A stretch of 64,000 nt of DNA from assembly GCA_002049455.2 (NCBI GenBank), contig KV918944.1, forward strand, positions 62,001 to 126,000. The letters are read 5' to 3'. The position numbers were made by a program, and so were the translations under genes. How positions within the stretch are numbered: position 1 is the first letter of the stretch; each line of letters starts with the position of its first letter. The notes beneath the pieces were generated by a model, which was given only the letters and a program-made list of their open reading frames with translations, searched no databases and was not told the DNA's origin. Positions 20,649 to 38,161 of the stretch are shown in pieces. The stretch comes from Porphyra umbilicalis (Eukaryota; Rhodophyta; Bangiophyceae; Bangiales; Bangiaceae).

Positions 20649-20652
20649 CTAG

Positions 20653-20948
20653 TTGCTATCCTACCGCAAAATGGCATCAATTGATGCCCGGTGGTGCATC
20701 AAATGATGCACCCTCTCACACTGCCAGACAACGACGGCTCGACCCCCCTTTTTCTGGCGTCTGGAGCACCCCCCGTTCGTAACCGTAGCACAATGGCTCC
20801 GAATTCCCCCCAGAGTAACAAAGCATCTCTGAGTCCGTTTCTGTTGTCAAAAGGAGCGTGCGAGGCCGAGAAGTACGAAAAAGATGGTGCCATAAAGTGC
20901 ATCAAATGATGCCCAGGGCATCAAATGATGCACTCGGTAGAATAGACA
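20653..20948. mobile_element. piggyBac-like MITE "Z" (296 bp)
   Basis: The right terminus, complemented, is TGTCTATTCTACC and the left is a diverged TTGCTATCCTACC. CTAG stands on both sides (20649-20652 and 20949-20952). Next to both ends are GCATCAAATGATGC-type palindromes. Its right part (about 20790-20935, inverted) matches the 5' non-coding arm of the element at 37.1 kb, so it is an internally deleted relative of a coding piggyBac-like element. Confidence 0.75.
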
Positions 20949-20952
20949 CTAG

Positions 20953-21202
20953 TGTCTATTCCCCTGAGGGGATCATTTGATCCTCTGAGGATCATCTGAT
21001 CCTCATATGAGGCACCTCAAAAAAGAACCTTTCTGACGTCCGTTCTGTTTTTTTCCGACACAGGCGAACGCAGCGTGCCCGTCTTACCCGTCGGACTGTT
21101 CAAGGGCACCTGAGGGTACCAAAACGTGCACGGCAAGGAAGAAAGATTCCTTTTTTTCGCGTAAGTAGGATCAATTGATCCCCAAGATCAGGGGAATAGA
21201 CA
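20953..21202. mobile_element. piggyBac-like MITE "M1" (250 bp)
   Basis: Both ends read TGTCTATTCCCCTGA inward, flanked by CTAG at 20949-20952 and 21203-21206. Subterminal palindromes GGATCATTTGATCC and GATCAATTGATC lie near the ends. No coding capacity. The CCCCTGA variation after TGTCTATTC sets it apart from the neighbours with CTACC. Confidence 0.8.
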
Positions 21203-21206
21203 CTAG

Positions 21207-24200
21207 TGTCTATTCTACCAACGACCTCATTTGATCCCTTTGACCTCATTTAATTCCCTTTTTCAGCAGCTGTTTTCACGTACTTTTCGTTGTCTGCGGT
21301 CGATTTCGACGGTAGAAATGAGATCAGCGCAGTCTGTTTGCCCTTGAGAGAACTGGAGTGCATCCTACGTTGACCAATGATTGCCCGAGGCGCCTTTTTT
21401 GGCGAGACCCTCACGCCACTCCAGACATGCAGTAGAGCACCACAGATGGCTCGATAATGCCGCTCTCGGCTCGCGTTGAGCCTCGTCGTCACAGTGCGTG
21501 CATGGATACGCCCCCCAGAACACGACAAGGCCCCCCCCCCCTCTCCTTCTCCCCCCCCACCCTCCTTCCGGCTTGGAGCTCCTCTCTGCCACTCAATGGC
21601 CATCCGTCTGATGGCGACGCCCCTCGATCCATCCTCTGTCGCTGCATCTGTCGTCGGCGCTGACTCGTTGGCTCCGTCCACCATGGCTACTGCCTCCCCG
21701 CCAGACTCCCCCGCCCCTCTCGCTGCCGCTGCTGCCGCGGCCGCGGCCCTGACCCCCTCTGCTGGGCCGCGGTCCAAGAAGCAGGCCAAGACCGTTGATC
21801 CTCGACTGGTTGTTGGCGCCGTCGTCCATACAAAGGCGGTCAACGTGACGAGCCTGGCGGAGCTCAGGCGCTTCCGCGGCTCGTTGGCAAAGACATGGAT
21901 AATCAACGGCTCGGTGATTGAGTTCCTACGTGGCAAAAGTAAGGGCGGGCGCAACAAGACGGAGCTGCGGGTGAGGTACTGCTGGCGAGGCAAGGTCTAC
22001 ATTAAGGTGCAGTCGTTGGCCAGCGTTTACGCCGGTCCGGGTCCTACCAGCGACGCTTTGCCAGAGACGCGGGTCGATGTGGGCGGGTCGGCGGTGACCG
22101 AGGCGTCTCAGCCTCGGACTCTTGGGTCCGGCGTTCCCGTGAGCAGCGCCCCCCCCCCCCGTTCCTCTCCCACACTACCCACAATGGCCACCTCGGTGAC
22201 TGCGACGCCGGTCGGCTCTCCACCAATGGCAACTGCCCACGGCCTCACCTGGGCGGCGGGATATGTCCAAGAGCCGGTAGGGGGCCCGGTGCCCCACCAA
22301 GCCTGGTCTGTCCACACCCCAGCGGGGGAGGTGATCTACGAATGCGGGGACGTACTCTGTCCTGGGCTGATGCGGAGGCCTTACGATTACTTCTTGGCCA
22401 TGTTCCCGATGGACCAGCTGGTGCGGATGGTTCAGCTGACCACCACCAAGCTGACCGCCCGCGGGATGGCGCCAACCTCCGCAGGGGAGGTCCTGAAGTT
22501 CCTCGGCGTGTGCGTCTTGGCCACTCGTTACGAGTTTGCCTTGCGCGCCGACCTGTGGGCAACCACAGCCCGCAGCAAGTACATGCTCGCACCCGCGTTT
22601 GGCGAGCGCACGGGAATGTCTCGCCGCCGTTTTGACGCGTTATGGTAGTGCTTGACGTTCAGCTTGCAGGTGGACGACGCCAATGACTCCGACGCAAGCC
22701 GCTGGCAGCTGGTCACCGACTTTGTGACCTCCATCAATGCCCACCGCGCCTCCCGCGTGACTCCGAGTGATCTACACTGTGTCGACGAGTCCATGTGCAA
22801 ATGGTACGGACGAGGAGGTCATTGGATCCAACGGGGACTTCCAATGTATGTCGCAATTGATCGCAAAAACGAAAATGGGTGCGAAATACAAAATGCGGCT
22901 TGCGGACGGAGCGGAATTATGCTGAACCTGAGCGTGGTGACTACAGCCGAGCACCGGCAAGGAACCGCGGATAGCGAGGACGACGACCTCCCGCACGGCA
23001 CGGTCGTGCTGAAGAAGCTCGTGGCACCCTGGGCCGGTACCAGGCGGGTCGTGTGCGCGGACTCATTCTTCGCAAGCGTGACGACCGTGCAAAAGCTCCG
23101 GGCCATGGGCCTGCGGTTTATTGGGGTTGTCAAAACGGCAACGCGGGTCTATCCCACGGGTACTCTGTCGAAGCTTCCGCTGGAGGACCGCGGAGAGCAC
23201 GCGGCGTACGTCCACAAAACTGTGGATGGCGTCGTGGACCTAATGGCTGTGCTATGGGTCGACCGCCAGCGCCGGTACTTTATATCATCTACGTCCAGCA
23301 CTCTGCCTGGTGCGCCCTATGAGCGCGTCCGGTGGCGCCAAGAAGGCGACCGCGCCGAGCGAGTGGTACTCACCATCGCCCAGCCGCAGGTGGTCGAGAC
23401 CTATTACAAGAGCTGTACTCAAATTGACCGGGACAATCGCTGCCGCCAAGGTGACTTGCGGCTGGAACACAAGCTAGTTACCCACGATTGGTCGATGCGG
23501 TTGAACCTGTCGCTGCTTGGTATGTGTATTGTCGACGCCTGGATGCTCTACTCGGGTGCCCGCGGCGGCGCTGCGGAGCTCACCCAGAAGCAGATTTACG
23601 AGGACCTTGCCGCAGAGCTCATTGACAACACCTACGACAGCGTGGGGCTTCTAGCTCGTGGCGCCCCTGATGGAGCAGGAGATGCGGTCGTCTTCCCACC
23701 AATGCGGTATGGCTTGGGCATCCATCTGACGCCGACGCTCAAGCGACGCGCCGGGGCGTCGGCCAACGAGGCCGACCAGTGTGCGCAGCGGCGATGCCGT
23801 GCCTGCAAGAAGGGGCGATCCACTCTTGTGTGCTCTGCTTGTCGTGATGGCAAGCATGTGGACGTGTATTGTTGTGGACCAAAGACGAGTCGGTTGAGCT
23901 GGGATCAGCACTTAAGGGAGGCGCACGATTTGGATGTTTAAGTGATTTTGGATTGTTTGTGTGGGTACCCGAGTGAAAACATACTTGACCTTAACACTTC
24001 ATTTCGATGATGTGCAGTCAGCGCCATTGCCTATAGAAGCGCTGCAGGCGACGCCGGCATGCACAAGTGAGGCAGTCGCGCCGGCTTCGGTGGCAGTGAT
24101 AAATGAATGGACAGGCGCTACAGCGTGGTCGTGCGACCGCTCCTCCCTTGGAGGTGGTGGGGCCGGTCGCGCGAGTGGCGCCGCATGGCGGCGCTCGAAG

Positions 24201-24685
24201 GGGGCAAGGCCTGTTGTCAGGTTTCCCCTTTTGTGCGCGGAGAGCGGCGGTGGCGGGTGCACAAGGAGCACACGAAAAGGGACGAAACCTGCGCGCTGGG
24301 GGTGCCGGCAGACGTAGTCAAATCTGCAAAGCGAAATAATATACCGCCCGCTGTAGCGGCGGCGCCCACGCGCGCGGTCAGCGCTGCGCGACTACAGATC
24401 TGGCGTCACGCCGCTGCCGCCTCGCGGGGCAGCGGACGCCAGCTTCTGGACCAACATTCCTGCAGCTCTTTCCAGGGGATATGAGCTCAGTCCATCTTCT
24501 TTGCGATCCGTAGGAACGGGGGTTCTTCAGACGTGCGTTGTAGCGAGGGGAGGCACCTGTACGTGTTCGTAGGTCGGAAAACAGCCGATTTCCCACTCAG
24601 ATGGGTCAAAAACGCCGATTCCGGGAGGACCTCATTTGATCCCCTGCCGGACCTCATTTGATCCCTTTTTCTGGTAGAATACACA
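21207..24685 (+). mobile_element. piggyBac-like element "A" with nonsense-broken transposase (3.48 kb)
   Basis: The left terminus is TGTCTATTCTACC and the right, complemented, TGTGTATTCTACC. CTAG flanks both sides (21203-21206, 24686-24689). Inside both ends lie copies of CCTCATTTGATCCC in opposite orientation. The 5' arm (about 21260-21370) is homologous to that of the element at 37.1 kb. It carries one transposase reading frame with a single stop. Confidence 0.85.
21476..23941 (+). pseudogene. piggyBac-like transposase, one in-frame TAG (element A)
   Basis: The protein is full length apart from TAG at 22646-22648; the same frame continues to 23941. The ATG at 21683 sits in the CCACCATGG context and is the most likely start; 21476 and 21596 are upstream in-frame ATGs. 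After an Ala/Pro-rich leader comes a roughly 90-residue accessory module (from VDPRLVVGAVVHTKAVNV), then the catalytic domain with Asp in CVDESMCKWYG, CADSFFASV and TQIDRDNRCRQ, then the DWSMRLNLSLLGMC helix, and a C-terminal Cys/His cluster (CRACKKG, CSAC, C...H). The stop replaces the Ser codon present at the matching place in element B2, so one substitution may have silenced it. Confidence 0.85.
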
Positions 24686-24689
24686 CTAG

Positions 24690-26312
24690 TGTCTACAGGG
24701 CATTCTCGTTATAACGTCCACGGATACAAGAGACTTATGCTAAACAAAACCGAAGTTGGCGTAGATCATATGCGCGCTGGGTGCCGAATTGAGGCGCCAG
24801 ATGCTGTTCGAAAGCCATGGCTTCTGGAGCGGACCGCCTCTGGCAGTTCCAAATTTGGTGGTGCGGGGCCTGGTGGTGTGGGACAGTTCGGCTCCATATC
24901 AGACAATGTGAGGACGGAGTGAGCCGATAGGTAACGGTCTCAGGATTCTGACCGAGAAAAGGCGCTGGGGCAGTGGGGGACGTTGCCAGATAATTAATTA
25001 TGATCGTGGCAACGCCCTTCACGGTCCAATCGCACGCGACAAGACTGAACGGCAGCCTCGAATGCCGAGCCGCCCCAGCATAGTTCGAAGACTTCAAATC
25101 TCTTCAGCGAATCGGATACAAGCGACTGAAACTTCAATCTGGCAGATTTATGTGAAGCAGGGTGGACGTTACAACGAGAATGCACTGTATTCTACCTCGA
25201 AAGAGGATCAAGGGATCCTCTCGTGAGGATCATTTGATCCTCTTCCAGAATCGTCGATTCCAGGCCATCTGAGTAGGAAACGGGCTATCTGGTCCCTACA
25301 GAATCACTGCCATGCGTTTCTCGTCGATACCAGTGCGCTGGGCCACAACGGCCCCGGTACAGTATGAAGAAGGCAGTGACTCTGTTATGTTTCTTTGAAA
25401 GAGGGATTCCCCTACGTACGGTACGACAACTGGCGGCTGGGCCGAAGATAGACCCGCCCGCCGCTCACTTTTGCCCGTGCTCAGGAACGCGTTGCGTCGA
25501 CTGCTGCTGCCGGGGCTCCGCGCCGGCGACCGACAGGGCGCCGACGCGGGCCGCCGCTGCGCGCACCGCCCCCGACGAAGCGGTGAGGCGGCGACGAAGG
25601 GACCAAAATTTCTCGTGCGCACACGCGCGGCGACTGAGCGGGAGGGGGCTGGTGGGGGCGCCCTACTGGCGCAGGGCGGACGGCGCACTGGCCCCTGTAC
25701 AGCGAGTAGTGTAGCTACGGTTGACGCGGCCGGTGGGGGGGGGGGGGGCAGGAAAGCGGCCGGGTGGGCGGGGGGGGGGGGGGGTGGTACAGGACTCGAC
25801 GGCGCTGGGGGGGTGACGCAGGGGGGGGGGCACCGCCAGACACATGCGGGGCAGCGGCAACCGTGCGCTTGCGACGCACCATGGTGGCAGCGAACGGGGC
25901 AGCGAGAGGGAGGGAAAGTCGAAAGGGGGGGGGGGCGGTCTCGGTGAGAGACCAGGCGACCGCACGGCCGTCTGCGGCAGACGGCTCCAGGAGCGTTGAT
26001 GGGGGCGAGGGGGGGCCGCTGGGCGGGCAACAGGCATCCGGTGTGTGAGCTGAGAGCGGTGTGTCGGTGGACGCCGTACGGAACGGGGGCGTGGTGGGAA
26101 TGCGCTTGTCGCGCGCCAAAGAAAGTGCCACAGGTCGAGTTTCTCTCCTTTTCGGATGCACCGAAGTTCTTCCCTGCGTATCCAGACCGCTCTGAGTTTG
26201 TTTTTGGGGTCAGAAAATATGCCAGACGCTGGGAAGCACTCGAAAACGCGTGCCGAAATAGAGGATCAAATGATCCTAAAAGCATCAAATGATGCTGTTG
26301 GTAGAATAGACA
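24690..26312 (-). mobile_element. piggyBac-like element "B1", internally deleted and inverted relative of B2
   Basis: It is bounded by CTAG at 24686-24689 and 26313-26316. The right terminus, complemented, is TGTCTATTCTACC. The left terminus is TGTC plus TA plus TTCTACC, split by a mariner-type insertion. In reverse orientation its ends match the ends of B2: about 25720-26312 against 26366-26960, and about 25190-25449 against 30240-30503. The transposase core is missing, so it is a deletion derivative mobilised in trans, if at all. Without the insertion it is about 1.13 kb. Confidence 0.8.
24696..25187. mobile_element. Tc1/mariner-type non-autonomous element (492 bp) inside a piggyBac terminus
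   Basis: The ends read CAGGGCATTCTCGTTATAAC and, complemented, CAGTGCATTCTCGTTGTAAC, both continuing GTCCAC, flanked by TA at 24694-24695 and 25188-25189. A CAGT start and TA duplication are hallmarks of Tc1/mariner. Removing it rebuilds the terminus TGTCTATTCTACC directly behind CTAG, which proves the order of events. No transposase is recognised inside. Confidence 0.85.
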
Positions 26313-26316
26313 CTAG

Positions 26317-26361
26317 TGTCTATTCTACCAGCAGCATATATATTCCGCGGTAGAATAGACA
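26317..26361. mobile_element. 45-bp minimal piggyBac-like element
   Basis: It consists of TGTCTATTCTACC, a 19-bp AT-rich centre, and the inverse terminus, flanked by CTAG at 26313-26316 and 26362-26365. It is either an extreme deletion derivative or the remains of an excision. Confidence 0.7.
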
Positions 26362-26365
26362 CTAG

Positions 26366-29300
26366 TGTCTATTCTTCCAACAGCATCATTTGATCTTTTA
26401 GGATCATTTGATCTTCTTGTTCGGTACGCGTTTTCGAGTGCTTCCCAGCGTCTGGCGTCTTTTCTGACACCAGAAACGAACTCAGGTCTGATAACGCTTG
26501 GAATAACTTCGGTGCATCCGAAAAGGAGAGAACCTCGACCTGTGGCACTTTCTTCGGCGCGCGACAAGCGCATTCCCACCACGCCCCGGTTCCGTACGGC
26601 GTCCACCGACACACCGCTCTCAGCTCACACACCGGATGCCTGTTGCCCGCCCAGCGGCCCCCCCTCGCCCCCATCAACGCTCCTGGAGCCGTCTGCCGCA
26701 GACGGCCGTGCGGTCGCCTGGTCTCTCACCGAGACCGCCCCCCCCCCCTTTCGACTTTCCCTCCCTCTCGCTGCCCCGTTCGCTGCCACCATGGTGCGTC
26801 GCAAGCGCACGGTTGCCGCTGCCCCGCATGTGTCTGGCGGTGCCCCCCCCCCTGCGTCATCCCCCCAGCGCCGTCGAGTCCTGTACCGCCCCCCCCCCCC
26901 CGCCCGCCCCCCAGGCCGACTTTGTGCCCCCCCTCCCCACCTGCTTTCCCCCCCTCCCCCCCTTCCGCGCCCAAGACGGGCAAGGCTGTTGATGCCCGCC
27001 TGGTCGTGGGTGCGACGGTCCACACCAAGGCCGTGCACATCATTAACCTGGCTGAGCTGAGCCGCTTCCGCGGTGCTTTGACCAGGACCTTCTACCTGGA
27101 CGGAGCCGTGCTGCAGGTGGTCCGCAGCAAGGGTAATGGCGGGCGAAATAAGACGGAGCTGCGCACGTCGTGGGTTTGGCGCGGGCGCACGGTCGAGAAG
27201 CTGCTGGGGTTGGCCAGCGCACGGGCGGGGCCGGCCCCTTCCCATGAGCTACTGGCTGACCAATCAGCTGTCGAGCTGGGTACCCCGGTGACCCAGGCGT
27301 CTGCGCCTGGTGGCCAGACCGTCGGCAACGCCTGTGCCCCCCTCCCCCCGCCCGCCGCAGGTGGTCAAGCCCTACCCCCCCCCCCACCCCGCGCGGGAAG
27401 GCTTCCCCTCACCCCCCCACGGGCATGACAGGTACTACTCTCCCGCAAGGGGCTGGTAGTGCCTCCCCCCCCCCCGCCGCCCCGTGACACCGGCTGTCGC
27501 CACCGCCCACGGGCTGACGTGGACGCCACACGCTGTCAGTGAGCCCGTCGGAGGTCCCGTATCTCGACAGATATGGTCGGTACAGTCGCCCGGCGGGGGG
27601 GTTATCCAGGAGGGGGGGGATTTGCTGGGTCCTGGGCAGATGCGTCGGCCCTACGACTACTTTTGGGCTATGGTTCCCATGGATCAGCTAACGCGGATGG
27701 TGCATCTGACCTCCTCGAAGCTCGAGGCCCGCGGCATGCAGCCCACCGACGGGGGGGAGGTCCTCAAGTGGGTTGGCGTGACGCTGTTGGCCACCCGCTA
27801 CGAGTTCGGCGCGCGCGCAGATTTGTGGGCGACGCCGGCTCGCAGCAAGTATACGCTTGCCCCCGCCTTCGGCGAGCGCACAGGCATGTCGCGACGCCGC
27901 TTTGATGCCCTGTGGTCTTGCATGACCTTCAGCCATCAGACTGGCGGGGCGGACGACGCCTCCAAGAAGCGTCGGTGGCAACTCATCAACGATTTTATCG
28001 TCTCCATCAACGATCACCGGGCTTCCCGCGTGTCGCCGAGCGACTTAATTTGCGTCGATGAGTTCATGTGCAAATGGTATCGTCAAGGGAGTCATTGGAT
28101 TCTCCGAGGCCTGCCGATGTACGTAGCAATTGATCGCAAGCCCGAGAACGGTTGTCAAATCCAAAATGCGGCATACGGACGGAGCGGAATTTTGTTGCGG
28201 CTGAGCGTCGTCACAACGGCGGATCACCGCCACGAGGAGGCTACGGGCGAAGAGGACAACTTTCCACACGGCACTGCCGTGTTCAAGTAGTTGGTAGCCC
28301 CATGGGCTGGCAGCAAGCGGGTTGTGTGCGCTGATTCGCACTTTGCGAGCGTGACGGCCACGCAACAGCTCCTGAGCATGGGCCTTCGGTTCATCGGCGT
28401 GATGAAGACGGGGAAAAAGGGGTTTCCTTCTGGGCGCGTTGTCCGTGCTACCGCTGGAGGAGCGGGGGGAGCACGTTTCGTACGTCCACGCCACGGCGGA
28501 CGGGGTCACCGATGTGATGGCCGTCCTGTGGGTGAACCGGGAGCGGCGTTACTTCATCTCCTCCGCGTTAACCACCCTACCTGGGATGCCATACGATCGC
28601 GTGCGGTGGCGGCAGGTAGGGGACGACGCTGAGCGCGTGGTGCTCACTGTCGCGCAGCCGCAGGTCGTCGAGACCTACTACCCATGCCGAGCCCAGATCG
28701 ACCGTCACAACCAATGTCTGCAAGACGACATCCAGCTGGAGCACAAGCTGATCGCAAACGAGTGGTCGATGCGTGTGAAACTCTCCCCTTTGGGTATTTG
28801 CGTCGTTGATGCCTGGGTGTTGTACTCGGGGGCGCACGGGACGGCGGCAGAGCTCACGCAAAACCAGTTCTACGAGGACCTGGCAGCGGAGCTAATCGAC
28901 AAAACGTTCAACACTGCGGGGCTCCGGGTTCGTGGTGCCCCGGCTGTGGATTCCGCTGACCGTGGGGTGCCGCCCCTGAGCTTCGGCGTTGGCATCCACC
29001 TGAACCCCACGTTAAAGCGGCGTACGGGGGAGTCCGCGCATGACGGTGACCAGCGCGCGCAGCGCACGTTCCGGGGCTGCAAGCGCGGCAGGACGTCGTA
29101 TGTCTGCGCGGGTTGCCGCGAGACCAAGGGCGGCGAGGTGTCTTTTTGTGGTCCCAAGACGGGTCGGCCATGCTTTGACCAGCACATGCGTGAAGTGCAC
29201 CATCTGGACATTTAGGCCATGGAATACATTTCTCTACTTGTCGACACGTGTTTCAGCATGTAAACTACTGCTAAATATCAGGTTCAACTGCACTGGACTG

Positions 29301-30503
29301 CGGAGGCTTATGTCCTGCAGGTTGCGTCCGCTGCTCCAGCTGTGGCGGTGGACGCGTTGCCGGGCTCGGTGTGCCGGTTCATTACACACGAGGCGTATTC
29401 ATACACAGCAAACAGACGGGCTGCGGCGCGTCCGAGCTGGCCGCCGCCACAGCTGTCGTCGCCGATGACGCCGGCCAGGCCGCCGCCGCGTCACTGTCGG
29501 GTGGCGACAGCGGCAACAGCCGGGGGCCGCTCCGCAGTTGCGCCACAGTCGTAAGAGGAACCTGACAGAGCACACCACTGGGCACCTCTGCCGGCGGCGG
29601 TAGCCCGACTGCTCGTCGCCCGCCGCCCCTCTCGCGCCTGTGGCCACCGGCCGCGGCAGCCCTAGCTTCACTACTCGCTTCCAGTGCGCTGTCCGCCCTG
29701 CGCCCGTATGGCGCCCTCACTAGCCCCCCCCCGCCCTGTCGCCGAAGCGCACTGCCGCTGCGTGTGCCCCCCCGCCAGTCGGTGGCGTTTTCTTCGCCGT
29801 CATCGCCTGGGCTGCCGCTGTGGTCGGCGGTACGCGTGCCGCCGCCCTCGACGCTGCCAACAGCACCGTCCCCCCGAGGCAGCGCCGCCTGCAGTGAGCG
29901 CGCCTTTCCGCCGCCGCCGCCGCCGCCACCGACGGACGACGGCGTCGGCGCCGCGGACGCCGTCAACGATGACGGCGCGTCCGCGCCGGACAGGGCGGCC
30001 AGATGGGGTGCCTCCACGACCGCGCGCCAAGTGACGGGCGTCTCGCCGGGCGGCGGCGACGGCGGCGGCGGCGGCGGCGGCCGCTGGGCGGCCGCCTTTG
30101 GCGGCGGTGGCGACGCGACCGACCGCGACGGGCCGGGTGTGCTCGGCGGGGCGGGGGTGGGGCCGCCACCCGGGGCACCGGTGTCGCGCGCCGTCGGCGC
30201 GCCGCTGCGAGAGGACCTCGACTGGCGGGGGGGTCTGACTTCGGCCCAGCCGCCAGTTGTCGTACCGTACGTAGGGGAATCCCTCTTTCAAAGAAACATA
30301 ACAGAGTCCCTGCCTTCTTCATTGAGTAGCGGGGCCGTTGTGGCCCAGCGCACTCGTATCGACGAGAAACGCATGGCAGTGATTCTGTAGCGACCAGATC
30401 GCCCGTTTTCCGACTCAGATGGCCTGTAATCGACAATTCTGGGAGAGGATCAAATGATCCTCAAGAGAGGACCATTTCATCCTCTTTTGAGGTAGAATAG
30501 ACA
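26366..30503 (+). mobile_element. piggyBac-like element "B2" with decayed transposase (4.14 kb)
   Basis: The left terminus is TGTCTATTCTTCC and the right, complemented, TGTCTATTCTACC. It is flanked by CTAG (26362-26365) and a CTAA variant (30504-30507). GATCAAATGATCC palindromes sit just inside both ends. Its 3' non-coding part (29.2-30.2 kb) is GC-rich and partly retained in B1. Confidence 0.8.
26789..29215 (+). pseudogene. piggyBac-like transposase, multiply broken (element B2)
   Basis: The ATG at 26789 lies in CCACCATGG, as in element A. The accessory module (VDARLVVGATVHTKAV) is in a second frame ending at a TGA at 27426-27428. The catalytic part resumes at about 27484 in another frame, meets TAG at 28288-28290 (a Lys codon in element A), and shifts frame again near 28425-28440. 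Catalytic Asp-containing motifs remain (CVDEFMCKWYR, CADSHFASV, AQIDRHNQC), as do the terminal Cys cluster and HMREVHHLDI. The first two frame changes fall in long C-runs and could be sequencing errors; the TAG cannot. Confidence 0.85.
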
Positions 30504-30507
30504 CTAA

Positions 30508-33245
30508 TGTCTCTTCTACCTTGAGGTGAGGATCAATTGATCCTCAATCGAGCATCAAATGATCCGATCCAACGATCGACGATTCCACCACTCATTTGTA
30601 TGCTTTTTGGACTCACAGCGACCTACAAACTTCTTCGCTGCGCTGCACGAGCGTTTCGTTGGCACAAACTGGGCTGGCTCTTGATGGTCGTTCAGCGAGT
30701 GACCAGAGGTTGCTCCTTCCACAAATAGCTCTGCTGACTCGAGATCCTGCAATCCCAGCAGCGATGCTCAAACACCACCCCTTCAGGCGTCCGCGTGCCA
30801 TCTGGCTGCGGTTGCACCCCCCAATCACCCGCATCCTTCCCCTAGGTCCTTCGTACCTGGCGCCCGGCTTAACACGGGCCCGGTCCACCCTCCACGCGCC
30901 CGCGCGCCCCACCCCCTCCCCTAGTTGTTCACACTCTCATCTGATGTGCCGCACGCATGCGCTCTGCAAAGCACAAGCGGGTCGAACGGGCACCGCAAAA
31001 AAACACCTCACCCACACCAGGCGTGTCCTTGCAGGTAGAGCACACGAGAGTCGTCCGCGCACCACATACCCGACACTCACTTTGCACTAAGTGACCCGAT
31101 GACGCGTGGCGCCTCTTGGCAGTGGGTGTTAAGTGAGTGCCCACCCCGTACGCTGGACCCGAGGCTGCCTGCTCCGCTCCGTCCACGACCGCCCTCGTAC
31201 GTGTGCCAGTAGCATCGAGAGTGTTGCCAATCATCTCAATCATCTCAGATGCTAGCAGCGCGTAGAAGTTGGCCTGCAGAAGGGAGGCCGCCGGCCCTCT
31301 CGCCCCACGATGGAGCAGCCACGCGTCAGCGATGCAAATTCCCAACAGGGAAATGTTCACCCGCATAGACCAGTCGTGCGTGCCCAGCTTCCGCTCCAGG
31401 CGTAGGTCCTCCTGCCGGCAGCGATTATGGCGGTCAATCTGGGAGCAGCACCCGTAGTAGAGCTGTGCAACCTCCGGCTGCCGCACCGTCAACGCCACGC
31501 GATGTGCCCCTGTCCCGTCCTCCATCTCCCTCCACCGTAAACGCTCATAGGAGGTGCCAGGCTGACAGCTGCCAGCCGTTGGCACAAAGTAACGCCTCTC
31601 CCTTTCTACCCACACGAGAGCCAACATGTCGGGGCGACCAGTAGCGTCGAGATGAACCATCGAGAGGTGATCACCTCTGGCGCCCAGCTCTCGAGCGTCT
31701 AGGCTGGCCAATGGAAAGCGGCGGTGAGCAGTCTTAACCACGCCGGTGAAGCGCAGGCCCGCCTCGTTGAGGGCCAATGCGGTGGCTAAGCTTGCAAAGT
31801 ACGAATCCGCACAGACGATGCGGTCCGTCCCGGCCCACGGTCGCACCAGCCGCATAAGTACAGCCGTGCCGTGGGATCCAGCAAGCTCTTCCGCAGTAAG
31901 ATTGGATTGTTGGTCGGCGGCGGTGGTGACAATGCGCAGCTGCAGCGTCAAGCCGCTGCGGCCACACACAGCGTCTTGAATTTCACACTCGTTCTCCGGT
32001 TTGCGATCGATGGCGACGTAAATTGGGAGCCCGCGGGAAGTCCAGTGGCCACCTTGCCCGTACCATCGAGAGATGGATTCGTCAACGCAGATGGTGTCTC
32101 CCGGTGTGACCCAGGATGACCGATGGGTGTTGATGGACGAGACAAAGTGGTTGACTCGCGCCCAGCGCAGCTGCTCAGACCCCCCGCTGGCCGCCGGTGG
32201 CTCGTCCGGGGCTTGACTAAATGTGAGCAGCGACCACAAAAGATCAAAGCGCCGTCGTGGCATACCCGTTCGACTCCCAAAAGCAGGGGCTGGCAGGTGT
32301 TTGGTTCGTGCGGTGGTCCACCACAGCTCGGCTCGTGACCCAAATTCAAACCGCGTGGACAGGAGGAGCACACCAAAAAATTTGACCAGCTCCCCAGGAG
32401 ACGTGGGCAGTACGCCGGCCTGAACCAACTTGGCTGAAGTGAGACGCACCATCCTTGCGAGCTGGTCTTGTGGAAAGACAGCAAAGAAATAGTCCAGCGG
32501 CGTGCGCGACCGCCCGAAGCCAACTGCGTCTCCCCCTTCCGCAATAATCTCGTCCCCGAGCGTGCGCACCGACCACGCCCGTCGCGCAACAGGACCCCCA
32601 ATAGGCTGCAAGACGTCCGCATCGTGCCATTCGAAGCCGTGCACAACAACAGGGGGACAAGGCCAGATGAGAACCAGTGGCACCCCCTGGACACGCGACA
32701 TGCGGAGATCCCTCTTGAACTGGGCGCACACCGCAGGCGGCACAGTCATGATCGGGGGAGGGAGGGGTGAGAGAAAAACGTACGTGTCATCACCACTGGC
32801 GGTACAGATGCGCGCCAGACGGGGGGTGGAGCCCCACGGAGCTATTCGAGCAATGCCGACCTAGTGAAAAAGCGCGCGCTGCTCAGGAAAGGAAAAAGCG
32901 CGGGTGCACGGGTCTCATCCTGAGGGTGGCCGTCCGCAGACAGCCGCGGACACGGACAGACGCCGTGAGCTGAGCCACTTCGTTCGGGTCCGCGCGCATC
33001 AGGGACTTTCCTGGGGATGACACCAGGCGGCTCGGGCTGCTGGAAGCAGTCACAGAAATGCACACAGTGTTCTAACTACATGCAGTTTAAGGACGCCCTC
33101 TGGCCCCAAAGGTACATAGACAGCGCTGAGTCCGTTCCCAAGGTCAAAGAAGTGGTGGGACCTCTCAGACTGCCGCAACAACGAGGTAAAAACGAGGTTC
33201 AAATGATCCTGAAAGGATCATTTGATCCTCAAGGTAGAATATACA
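30508..33245 (-). mobile_element. piggyBac-like element "C", structurally complete (2.74 kb)
   Basis: The left terminus is TGTCTCTTCTACCTTGAGG and the right, complemented, TGTATATTCTACCTTGAGG. It is flanked by CTAA (30504-30507, shared with B2) and CTAG (33246-33249). Subterminal palindromes lie inside each end: GGATCAATTGATCC on the left and GGATCAAATGATCC on the right. It encodes one uninterrupted transposase and is the best candidate for an active member of the array. Confidence 0.85.
30929..32749 (-). CDS. Intact piggyBac-like DDD transposase (element C)
   Basis: The protein has 606 residues with an ATG start. It would cut and rejoin the ends of element C and perhaps of its non-autonomous relatives. 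The N-terminal piggyBac domain runs from about 33 to 210 (GGPVARRAWS, TPLDYFFAVFP, FGSRTGMPRRRFD). The catalytic core has Asp223 (CVDESISRWYG), Asp315 (CADSYFAS) and Asp439 (SQIDRHNRCRQ), followed by DWSMRVNISLLGICIADAW (459-477). The C-terminal zinc-binding cluster uses Cys559, 562, 570, 573, 585 and probably His602. It lacks the DPRLVVGAV accessory module of the A/B2 type, and 32.75-33.2 kb shows no replacement exon. The overall pattern resembles oomycete and algal PGBD4-like transposases. Confidence 0.9.
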   Translation of the reverse strand: MTVPPAVCAQFKRDLRMSRVQGVPLVLIWPCPPVVVHGFEWHDADVLQPIGGPVARRAWSVRTLGDEIIAEGGDAVGFGRSRTPLDYFFAVFPQDQLARMVRLTSAKLVQAGVLPTSPGELVKFFGVLLLSTRFEFGSRAELWWTTARTKHLPAPAFGSRTGMPRRRFDLLWSLLTFSQAPDEPPAASGGSEQLRWARVNHFVSSINTHRSSWVTPGDTICVDESISRWYGQGGHWTSRGLPIYVAIDRKPENECEIQDAVCGRSGLTLQLRIVTTAADQQSNLTAEELAGSHGTAVLMRLVRPWAGTDRIVCADSYFASLATALALNEAGLRFTGVVKTAHRRFPLASLDARELGARGDHLSMVHLDATGRPDMLALVWVERERRYFVPTAGSCQPGTSYERLRWREMEDGTGAHRVALTVRQPEVAQLYYGCCSQIDRHNRCRQEDLRLERKLGTHDWSMRVNISLLGICIADAWLLHRGARGPAASLLQANFYALLASEMIEMIGNTLDATGTRTRAVVDGAEQAASGPAYGVGTHLTPTAKRRHASSGHLVQSECRVCGARTTLVCSTCKDTPGVGEVFFCGARSTRLCFAERMRAAHQMRV

Positions 33246-33249
33246 CTAG

Positions 33250-37091: not shown

Positions 37092-38090
37092 TGTCTATTC
37101 TACTGTTCGCATCATTTGATGCGATTTGCATCAAATGATGCGGTTTTTTGGTACCGTTTTTCGCGTAGCTCTCGACCTCAAACAACGATTCTGACAACAG
37201 AAATGGACTCAGCAGGGTCTGTTTAGTCTTGAGGGAACTCGAGTGCATCCTGCGTTGAGAAAAAGTAGGGTCTTTGCGCGAGTTTCTGCGCTCCCATAGC
37301 GCACTTCCGCCATGCAGCAGGCGCCGACACAACCGGCGCACGGGTCCACCATGGCAAGAATGGGCGACCAGCAGCCCCACGCGAGGGCGATGAAATGTTC
37401 CCAGCTCTCCGAGAGTGGGGGGGGGCGGTTGAGCCGACCCCTCCGCCTCCCCACGATTACTTTGCCGCCTGGCTCCCCGCCGCCCCGCTTCTCGCGCCTC
37501 TCTTCCCCAACCCCGCCGCCCCTCCCGCTTGTTTTACGCGCTATTTTTACGTCGCCGCGTCTCTATCAACGCTCCGCGTGACCTGGCCACCTCGCATCGC
37601 CACCCCACCCCCGCAACGCCAACCGCCCCACGTCCACACACCTGCGTACGTGCCCCCTACCCCCCCCTCCGCCCTACCTGCTCCCACACCATTTCGTCCT
37701 CCGTACCTCCCCCCCTCCCCATTCCCACCGCTCCCTTTTAGTCGTTAATCATGCAAAGAGGGACCGAGGCAGGCCGGGGGGGTGCCTCAAGTCTTTCCCT
37801 GGCCGTCGCGGCCACTGCCGCCGCCGCCTTGCGCCCCTCTGCACTCGCCTCGGGCGGCTGGTCGGGAACGCAACAGCTCGCTTCGATCTTCCCCGCGCGG
37901 AGCATCACCAAGAAGGCCGCAGCCGCTGACCCCCGCCTGGTGGTGGGGGCGGTAGTGCAAACCAAGGCTCTGAACGTCATCAACTACATGGAGGTGTCCC
38001 GCTTCAAGGGGGCGCTGGCAAAGGTCGTGTCCGTGGACGGCAAGGTTCTCGAGGTGGTGCACGGGAGAAGCAAGGGGCCTCTGAGACCTC
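37092..38090 (+). mobile_element. Truncated piggyBac-like element "E" (5' part only)
   Basis: The left terminus TGTCTATTCTACTG follows TTAG. Two palindromes follow (GCATCATTTGATGC, GCATCAAATGATGC), then a 5' arm nearly matching element A (GAGTGCATCCT.CGTTGA). Homology stops at about 38,085 in the accessory module; the catalytic part and right end are gone. Confidence 0.75.
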
Positions 38091-38161
38091 CACTCCTGAA
38101 GCGACGACAAGCAACTTCGAGTTCACCGTCGTCATGTTGGAAAGGACTATTGCGAAGGTAG
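37751..38161 (+). pseudogene. N-terminal remnant of a piggyBac-like transposase (element E)
   Basis: From the ATG, an Ala/Ser-rich leader leads into DPRLVVGAVVQTKALNV and SRFKGALAKV, the accessory module seen in A and B2. After EVVHGRSKG the similarity ends abruptly; the remaining codons to 38161 are unrelated downstream sequence. Confidence 0.8.

Follow-up and report, generated by a model that had tools for sequence, protein, structure and literature searches.

The window analysed here, a stretch of 64,000 nucleotides from the red alga Porphyra umbilicalis (contig KV918944.1, positions 62,001 to 126,000, forward strand), contains an array of seven piggyBac-like elements (Z, M1, A, B1, a 45-bp minimal copy, B2 and C) that lie end to end with a single tetramer between neighbours. 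Known piggyBac elements target TTAA, which makes piggyBac-like elements bounded by CTAG look unusual. All eight tetramers were located exactly where the initial annotation had placed them (seven CTAG and one CTAA, Table 1). A search of the window for the 13-mer TGTCTATTCTACC, allowing up to two mismatches, returned 12 matches with 0.29 expected. The left end of Z is degenerate (TTGCTATCCTACC). The description of the array as head-to-tail was wrong: the transposases of A and B2 are encoded on the plus strand and that of C on the minus strand, while B1 and B2 lie in opposite orientations.

The role of the tetramer was examined across the genome (83.8 Mb, 665 contigs), in which TGTCTATTCTACC occurred 389 times exactly, compared with once for the reversed control; CTAG preceded 310 of the 389 exact ends. 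One contig encodes a red-type rbcL that differs at 4 of 488 residues from a protein of Bangia atropurpurea (P0123) and at 4 from a second protein (P0122); most of its other named matches at 97-99% come from Pyropia, Porphyra and Bangia, in keeping with a red alga of the Bangiaceae. Flanks were read at 108 distinct sampled ends and were CTAG in 84, TTAG in 7, CACT in 4, CCAG in 3, GTAG in 3 and CTAA in 2 cases, with five others found once each; this sample was not random (ends lacking CTAG were fetched on purpose), and the count free of that bias is 310 of 389. TTAA flanked none of the 108 sampled ends. CTAG flanks were also present at elements with TACC, CCCCC and CCCCT termini. Among 50 sampled complete elements, which had been pre-selected for flanks at most one mismatch from CTAG and whose 39/10/1 split is therefore biased towards it, 39 had CTAG on both sides and ten had unequal flanks. 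Under the same pre-selection, 20 of the 23 complete elements longer than 2.5 kb had CTAG on both sides and three combined a CTAG flank with a CTAA flank, the B2/C joint being common to two of these three. Where the flanks were unequal, the odd tetramer differed at the outermost base in 7 of the 10 elements, a bias that would fit a CTAG overhang annealed to a variant target with the mismatch repaired on one side.

Empty relatives of filled sites were sought by joining the flanks of 26 insertions with one tetramer and running them against the genome; 40 of 1593 candidates were scored and 9 matches examined, covering five sites with joint-spanning matches. The relatives at these five sites are other repeat copies, not alleles, and were possibly never filled. 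A single CTAG stood at the joint for three of the five insertions (L050, L053 and L049), the empty relatives of which read flank-CTAG-flank. At L026, an insertion in a retroelement-like pol reading frame, the two empty copies (L083 and L084) read CCAG and the filled site CTAG on both sides, as might result from target polymorphism or from conversion by the element's own overhang. At L022, the single empty relative (L087) reads CTAGTTAA, with an extra TTAA, and the filled site again has CTAG on both sides. Since the empty relatives of three insertions carry one CTAG, the tetramer is host DNA duplicated upon insertion, with minor variants. The initial annotation had proposed CTAG as the target, and its proposal stands: the 4-bp flank was the same at solo insertions, and neither a different nor a longer duplication was found there. 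That CTAG belongs to the terminus was ruled out by the empty relatives together with an element (L045, see below) that has CTGG on both outer sides. L003 and L050 appear to be one insertion on two contigs, where the adjoining flanks are identical but their order is inverted; this flank lies in a repeat, because it has many empty relatives.

The family is a member of the piggyBac-type DDD transposase superfamily with CTAG in place of TTAA. Its DDE_Tnp_1_7 domain scored 130.1 bits (curated cut-off 22.4), the fold is that of piggyBac, and the catalytic triad of the C transposase (D223, D315 and D439) aligned in hhalign with D268, D346 and D447 of piggyBac. Across 45 sequences D315 and D439 were invariant, and D223 was at least 90% conserved, as were C559, C562, C570, C573, C585 and C593 of a Cys-rich C-terminal domain. 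The top sequence-profile match in the PDB was piggyBat of Myotis (9c0f, E 8.5e-14). The transposases have a conserved N-terminal SH3-like barrel (L027:1033-1341 and relatives) with weak Tudor and KOW matches and, in the five proteins scanned, no Pfam match over it; the N-terminal domain of the other copies was not found in the frames upstream of the 606-aa open reading frame (ORF) of C. A second, TTAA-type piggyBac family was not found: as judged by eye, all 61 PF13843 places fall on contigs that are already represented among the 75 matches to C. Relatives at 43-49% identity include a diatom protein (Fragilaria). In IMG/VR the relative was a single locus (L088, 45% identity) without convincing terminal inverted repeats (TIRs), its best candidate having a TTGC repeat. 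The GTDB contigs yielded one 3.4-kb contig labelled as a Rhodobacteraceae metagenome-assembled genome (L099), with a 57% identical transposase beside a low-complexity GC-rich stretch and no ends matching those of the family, which is probably eukaryotic (algal) contamination of that assembly.

In Trichoplusia ni piggyBac, according to PMC7351741, the target is melted, T0 hydrogen-bonds A3, Y283 stacks on A3, N440 reads hairpin A-2, and T-3 is held by V414, L416 and Y439. CTAG retains the central TA and replaces the outer T/A by C/G, an outer pair that could still pair. When C was mapped onto piggyBac (PDB 6x67/6x68) by hhalign (probability 99.6%, sequence profiles about 19% identical), R275, Y283, K290, V414, L416, Y439 and N440 corresponded to Y230, A246, N253, R386, F388, Y431 and Y432, so that one of the seven residues contacting TTAA or the hairpin is kept (Y439 as Y431) and six differ, F388 remaining hydrophobic; the correspondence is approximate, the loop at 228-253 being poorly predicted (predicted local distance difference test, pLDDT, below 50). 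Conservation of Y230, A246, R386, F388, Y431 and Y432 across the 45 sequences was 90% or higher. The omega loop of C has 8 residues more than that of piggyBac, the flank-contacting R372 and R376 of piggyBac stay basic (K339 and R343), and the TIRs start with TGTC, unlike those of piggyBac. By contrast, piggyBat, which targets TTAA, retains the equivalents of R275, Y283, K290, Y439 and N440 and has Y-N where C has Y431-Y432.

Abutting copies were counted throughout the genome, as the initial annotation had suggested, by means of a junction pattern in which a pair of ends face each other across a 4-bp gap (at most two mismatches in 18). Of the 19 places that matched (control 0), 11 did so exactly, 5 at one mismatch and 3 at two; five lie within the window and 14 elsewhere across 13 contigs. 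The 14 outside junctions (L089-L092, L094-L097, L014, L059-L062 and L043) join differing pairs of ends; in three of them (L061, L062 and L043) one or both sides are so degenerate that the second element is uncertain, which gives a range of 16-19. At nine places perfect 9-mers face each other over exactly one CTAG. Exact ends of the form CTAG-TGTCTATTC numbered 486; when one mismatch was tolerated the number rose to 774 (30 for the control), and therefore about 372 elements are present. Outside element ends there are about 87,000 CTAG sites, a density of 1.04 per kb. Random insertion of 400 elements gave 1.9 expected contacts, and one simulation in 3000 reached at least nine; for perfect ends and CTAG alone, nine contacts compare with 0.68 expected (243 elements). 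Abutting copies, which involve different families, are eight- to tenfold above chance (16-19 versus about 2), with the qualifications that ends were counted at up to one mismatch in 13 and junctions at up to two in 18, and that copy counts rest on exact or near-exact termini, so that older copies escape.

Joints of another kind emerged when TAGACA and TGTCTATTC were searched for at distances of 0-8 nt from each other: a 2-nt spacer was present at 12 places, a 4-nt spacer at 12 and an 8-nt spacer at one, and no other length occurred (control 0). Nine of the ten TAGACA-CT-TGTCTATTC ends (L005, L063, L068, L100, L101, L103, L104, L105 and L106) bear a reversed copy of 6-21 nt from their own terminus, with CTAG on the outside, and resemble P-nucleotide joints. 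In three of the nine the measured arm overlaps the CTAG by 1-3 bases, and two arm-bearing ends on contig C404, 1.04 kb apart, look like both ends of one element; at the tenth place (L102) two different elements are joined. A similar arm-like end occurs at L010, there with CTGG and with mutations in the terminus, and facing ends were seen with an AG spacer and reversed loop orientation (C305:15505), with a GT spacer (C198:78157) and with an 8-nt spacer that has CTAG at its end (C63:239060). The reversed arms suggest the remnant expected of a hairpin that was opened off centre and joined at a CTAG break, apart from the loop, which is 2 nt long in place of the 4 nt of the piggyBac hairpin.

Elements have also combined by nesting. 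A 1415-bp composite is present in five copies (L044, L045, L046, L052 and L058, 93-97% identical to L044). Roughly 350 bp into it stands a CTAG, and behind this lies an inner element of some 1055 bp, so that the composite contains an internal CTAG-TGTCTGTTGTACG end. An end-to-end joint was rejected as the origin of the composite, its inner CTAG having an element end on one side only. Its structure fits an element having inserted at a CTAG within or next to a second one, the outer ends of which would then have served as a unit; in this way new elements can develop from arrays and nests.

How the arrays arise can be read in more than one way. Tentatively, we propose that they form by the joining of the cohesive CTAG ends of excised elements, and not by preference for a palindromic target. 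An excised end would pass through a hairpin, as in piggyBac, and open to a 4-nt 5' overhang, here presumably 5'-CTAG. Because CTAG is self-complementary, the ends of two excised elements, or those of one element and of the break left by another, could anneal and be joined to give X-CTAG-Y, with a single CTAG common to both. Such a chain would keep two usable outer ends and so could integrate and later move as one unit, and repeated rounds at a single locus would yield an array like that of the window. The 2-nt joints and the reverse-complement arms bounded by CTAG point to this joining of cut ends.

End joining is only narrowly favoured over tethered insertion, and the demonstrated facts are compatible with both. 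Under tethering, which we regard as a comparably plausible though equally provisional account, transposase on the ends of a resident element would capture a second transpososome and direct it to the nearest CTAG, often the flank of the resident, and arrays would grow stepwise. Several observations weigh for tethering: the nine joints of perfect 9-mers are exact, with one CTAG; the copies in the array differ in age; the conserved SH3-like barrel could act as a tether; the 1415-bp composite resembles an insertion at a CTAG within or next to another element, followed by use of the outer ends; and two additional ends lie less than 4 kb from the array. To these may be added the palindromes TCAWWTGA, a candidate transposase binding site, which are dense within the 120 bp inside each TIR (15.1 per kb versus 0.05 per kb in the interiors; 127 versus 4 sites in elements of at least 700 bp) and could plausibly form a binding array. 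Tethering should, however, also enrich insertions that are near but not abutting, given about one CTAG per kb. In a gap analysis of the first 100 of the 486 exact ends (contigs C1-C38), 63 elements defined by exact ends only included one abutting pair, and the next smallest gap was 7.0 kb. This absence of near misses is countered by the window itself, in which two ends with variant flanks lie 2.5 and 3.8 kb past the array (35702, flank CCAG, and 37092, flank TTAG). Tethering also leaves the 2-nt spacers and the CTAG-bounded arms unexplained.

Random insertion into a small permissive part of the genome, with accidental contacts between copies, is an improbable origin of the arrays. It could account for 8 contacts if 600 elements were present and half of the sites open, but about 372 elements and 87,000 sites lead to only about 2, and regional crowding should produce many near misses, of which there were none below 7 kb among the 63 elements, the two ends close to the array in the window notwithstanding.

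Still less probable is the cause put forward in the initial annotation, namely that the palindrome around CTAG at a junction is itself a preferred target. The joint of two ends does form the perfect 30-bp palindrome that was described. Target preference was assessed at 89 solo ends, the two ends of an insertion being counted separately, against 754 background CTAG contexts, after 21 ends facing GACA (outward TGTC) had been removed as junctions. At solo ends, A or G came directly after CTAG in 72% of cases and the next base was G in 48%. All element ends offer T at the first of these positions, where it stood in 11% of the solo cases compared with 24% in the background. TG was not avoided (6 versus 5.9 expected), and TGT was found 0 times with 2.4 expected, a deficit that is partly by construction because the TGTC-facing ends had been removed first. 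No enrichment of host sites resembling ACACTAGTGT was found in this solo-target set, and the first self-insertion would face a half-palindrome only. Local preference at the target gives element ends no advantage and perhaps a slight disadvantage, and on the present data the junction palindrome is therefore not the explanation. Tandem duplication or misassembly is very improbable indeed: although some insertions, such as L003 and L050 with their inverted flanks, occur twice in the assembly, neighbours in the array come from different families (B1 and B2 excepted) and the joints on other contigs join different pairs.

The features of the array are listed in Table 1. B1 derives from the B2 family by deletion (its two ends 94.3% and 92.0% identical), and its left TIR is interrupted by a nested element that we take, judging by its termini, to be mariner-like and that sits at TGTC-TA-TTC. 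Near position 4910 of L062 the sequence TGTCTA-CTG-TATTCTACC resembles an excision footprint of this CAG...CTG type at the same TIR position as in B1. To the right of the array, the end at 37092 is followed by a remnant ORF (37751-38161) similar to the N-terminal domain of the transposases.

Table 1. Features of the array in window coordinates (MITE, miniature inverted-repeat transposable element).
Feature	Position	Strand	Description
Left outer CTAG	20649..20652		Left boundary of array
Element Z	20653..20948		296-bp MITE; left TIR degenerate; 91% identity to copies in L070, L069 and L043
Z/M1 CTAG	20949..20952		Shared
Element M1	20953..21202		250-bp MITE; termini TGTCTATTCCCCT
M1/A CTAG	21203..21206		Shared
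Element A	21207..24685	+	3479 bp; carries transposase
A transposase ORF, N-terminal part	21476..22648	+	Stops at in-frame TAG; N-terminal domain 21773-22081
A transposase ORF, C-terminal part	22652..23941	+	Same frame as N-terminal part; DDE_Tnp_1_7 E 1e-25
A/B1 CTAG	24686..24689		Shared
Element B1	24690..26312	-	1623 bp; B2-family copy with internal deletion, inverted relative to B2
Nested element in B1 left TIR	24696..25187		492 bp; TA duplication, CAG...CTG ends
B1/45-bp copy CTAG	26313..26316		Shared
Minimal copy	26317..26361		45 bp; two 13-bp TIRs and 19 bp between
45-bp copy/B2 CTAG	26362..26365		Shared
Element B2	26366..30503	+	4138 bp; transposase broken; 92% identity to L032 across 4158 columns
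B2 transposase fragment	27484..28290	+	DDE_Tnp_1_7 E 3.9e-14
B2 transposase fragment	28439..29215	+	DDE_Tnp_1_7 E 8.8e-05
B2/C CTAA	30504..30507		Shared
Element C	30508..33245	-	2738 bp; two blocks 96.6% and 97.3% identical to L010
C transposase	30929..32749	-	606 aa; DDD = D223, D315, D439; Cys-rich C terminus
Right outer CTAG	33246..33249		Right boundary of array

piggyBac is present in red algae, and a few beetle elements depart from TTAA, according to PMC12732532. Among open-access titles and the beginnings of abstracts (Repbase and subscription journals lay outside the search) no CTAG-targeting piggyBac was described; in passages from two of the nine papers that contained both terms, CTAG was a figure label and a stop-codon context. 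A wider reading is possible but doubtful as a whole: that a clade comprising the red alga and the relatives at 43-49% identity, Fragilaria included, switched from TTAA to CTAG through remodelling of the omega loop and of the residues that read the tetranucleotide, that end-to-end joining of the self-complementary CTAG overhangs by the host gives rise to arrays and P-nucleotide-like joints, and that this, together with composites moving as units, would allow new elements to be put together. In piggyBac the specificity for TTAA is regarded as near-fixed and follows from the hold of the transposase on the melted tetranucleotide. A natural CTAG family offers a ready comparison for which residues set the target, of direct use for engineered transposases, and its arrays, composites and hairpin-like joints provide genomic evidence on the joining of cut ends in vivo and on the origin of compound elements.

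Arrays of transposable elements occur in other systems as well. The multimers of Tourist/PIF MITEs in maize and rice are built by self-insertion into neighbouring target sites, and these elements depend on a PIF/Harbinger transposase and a TWA target, unlike the present family. Similar in architecture are the SaTar Mutator-like elements of guayule and rice, the multimers of which, as described in PMC5907723, are also non-nested linear arrays of unrelated, uninterrupted elements, with about 30% of gSaTar copies directly linked. According to the same paper, SaTar elements are Mu-like, target microsatellites, often insert without a duplication and have no shared 4-bp target, whereas microsatellite targeting was not seen here, the sampled solo targets being CTAG in varied sequence.

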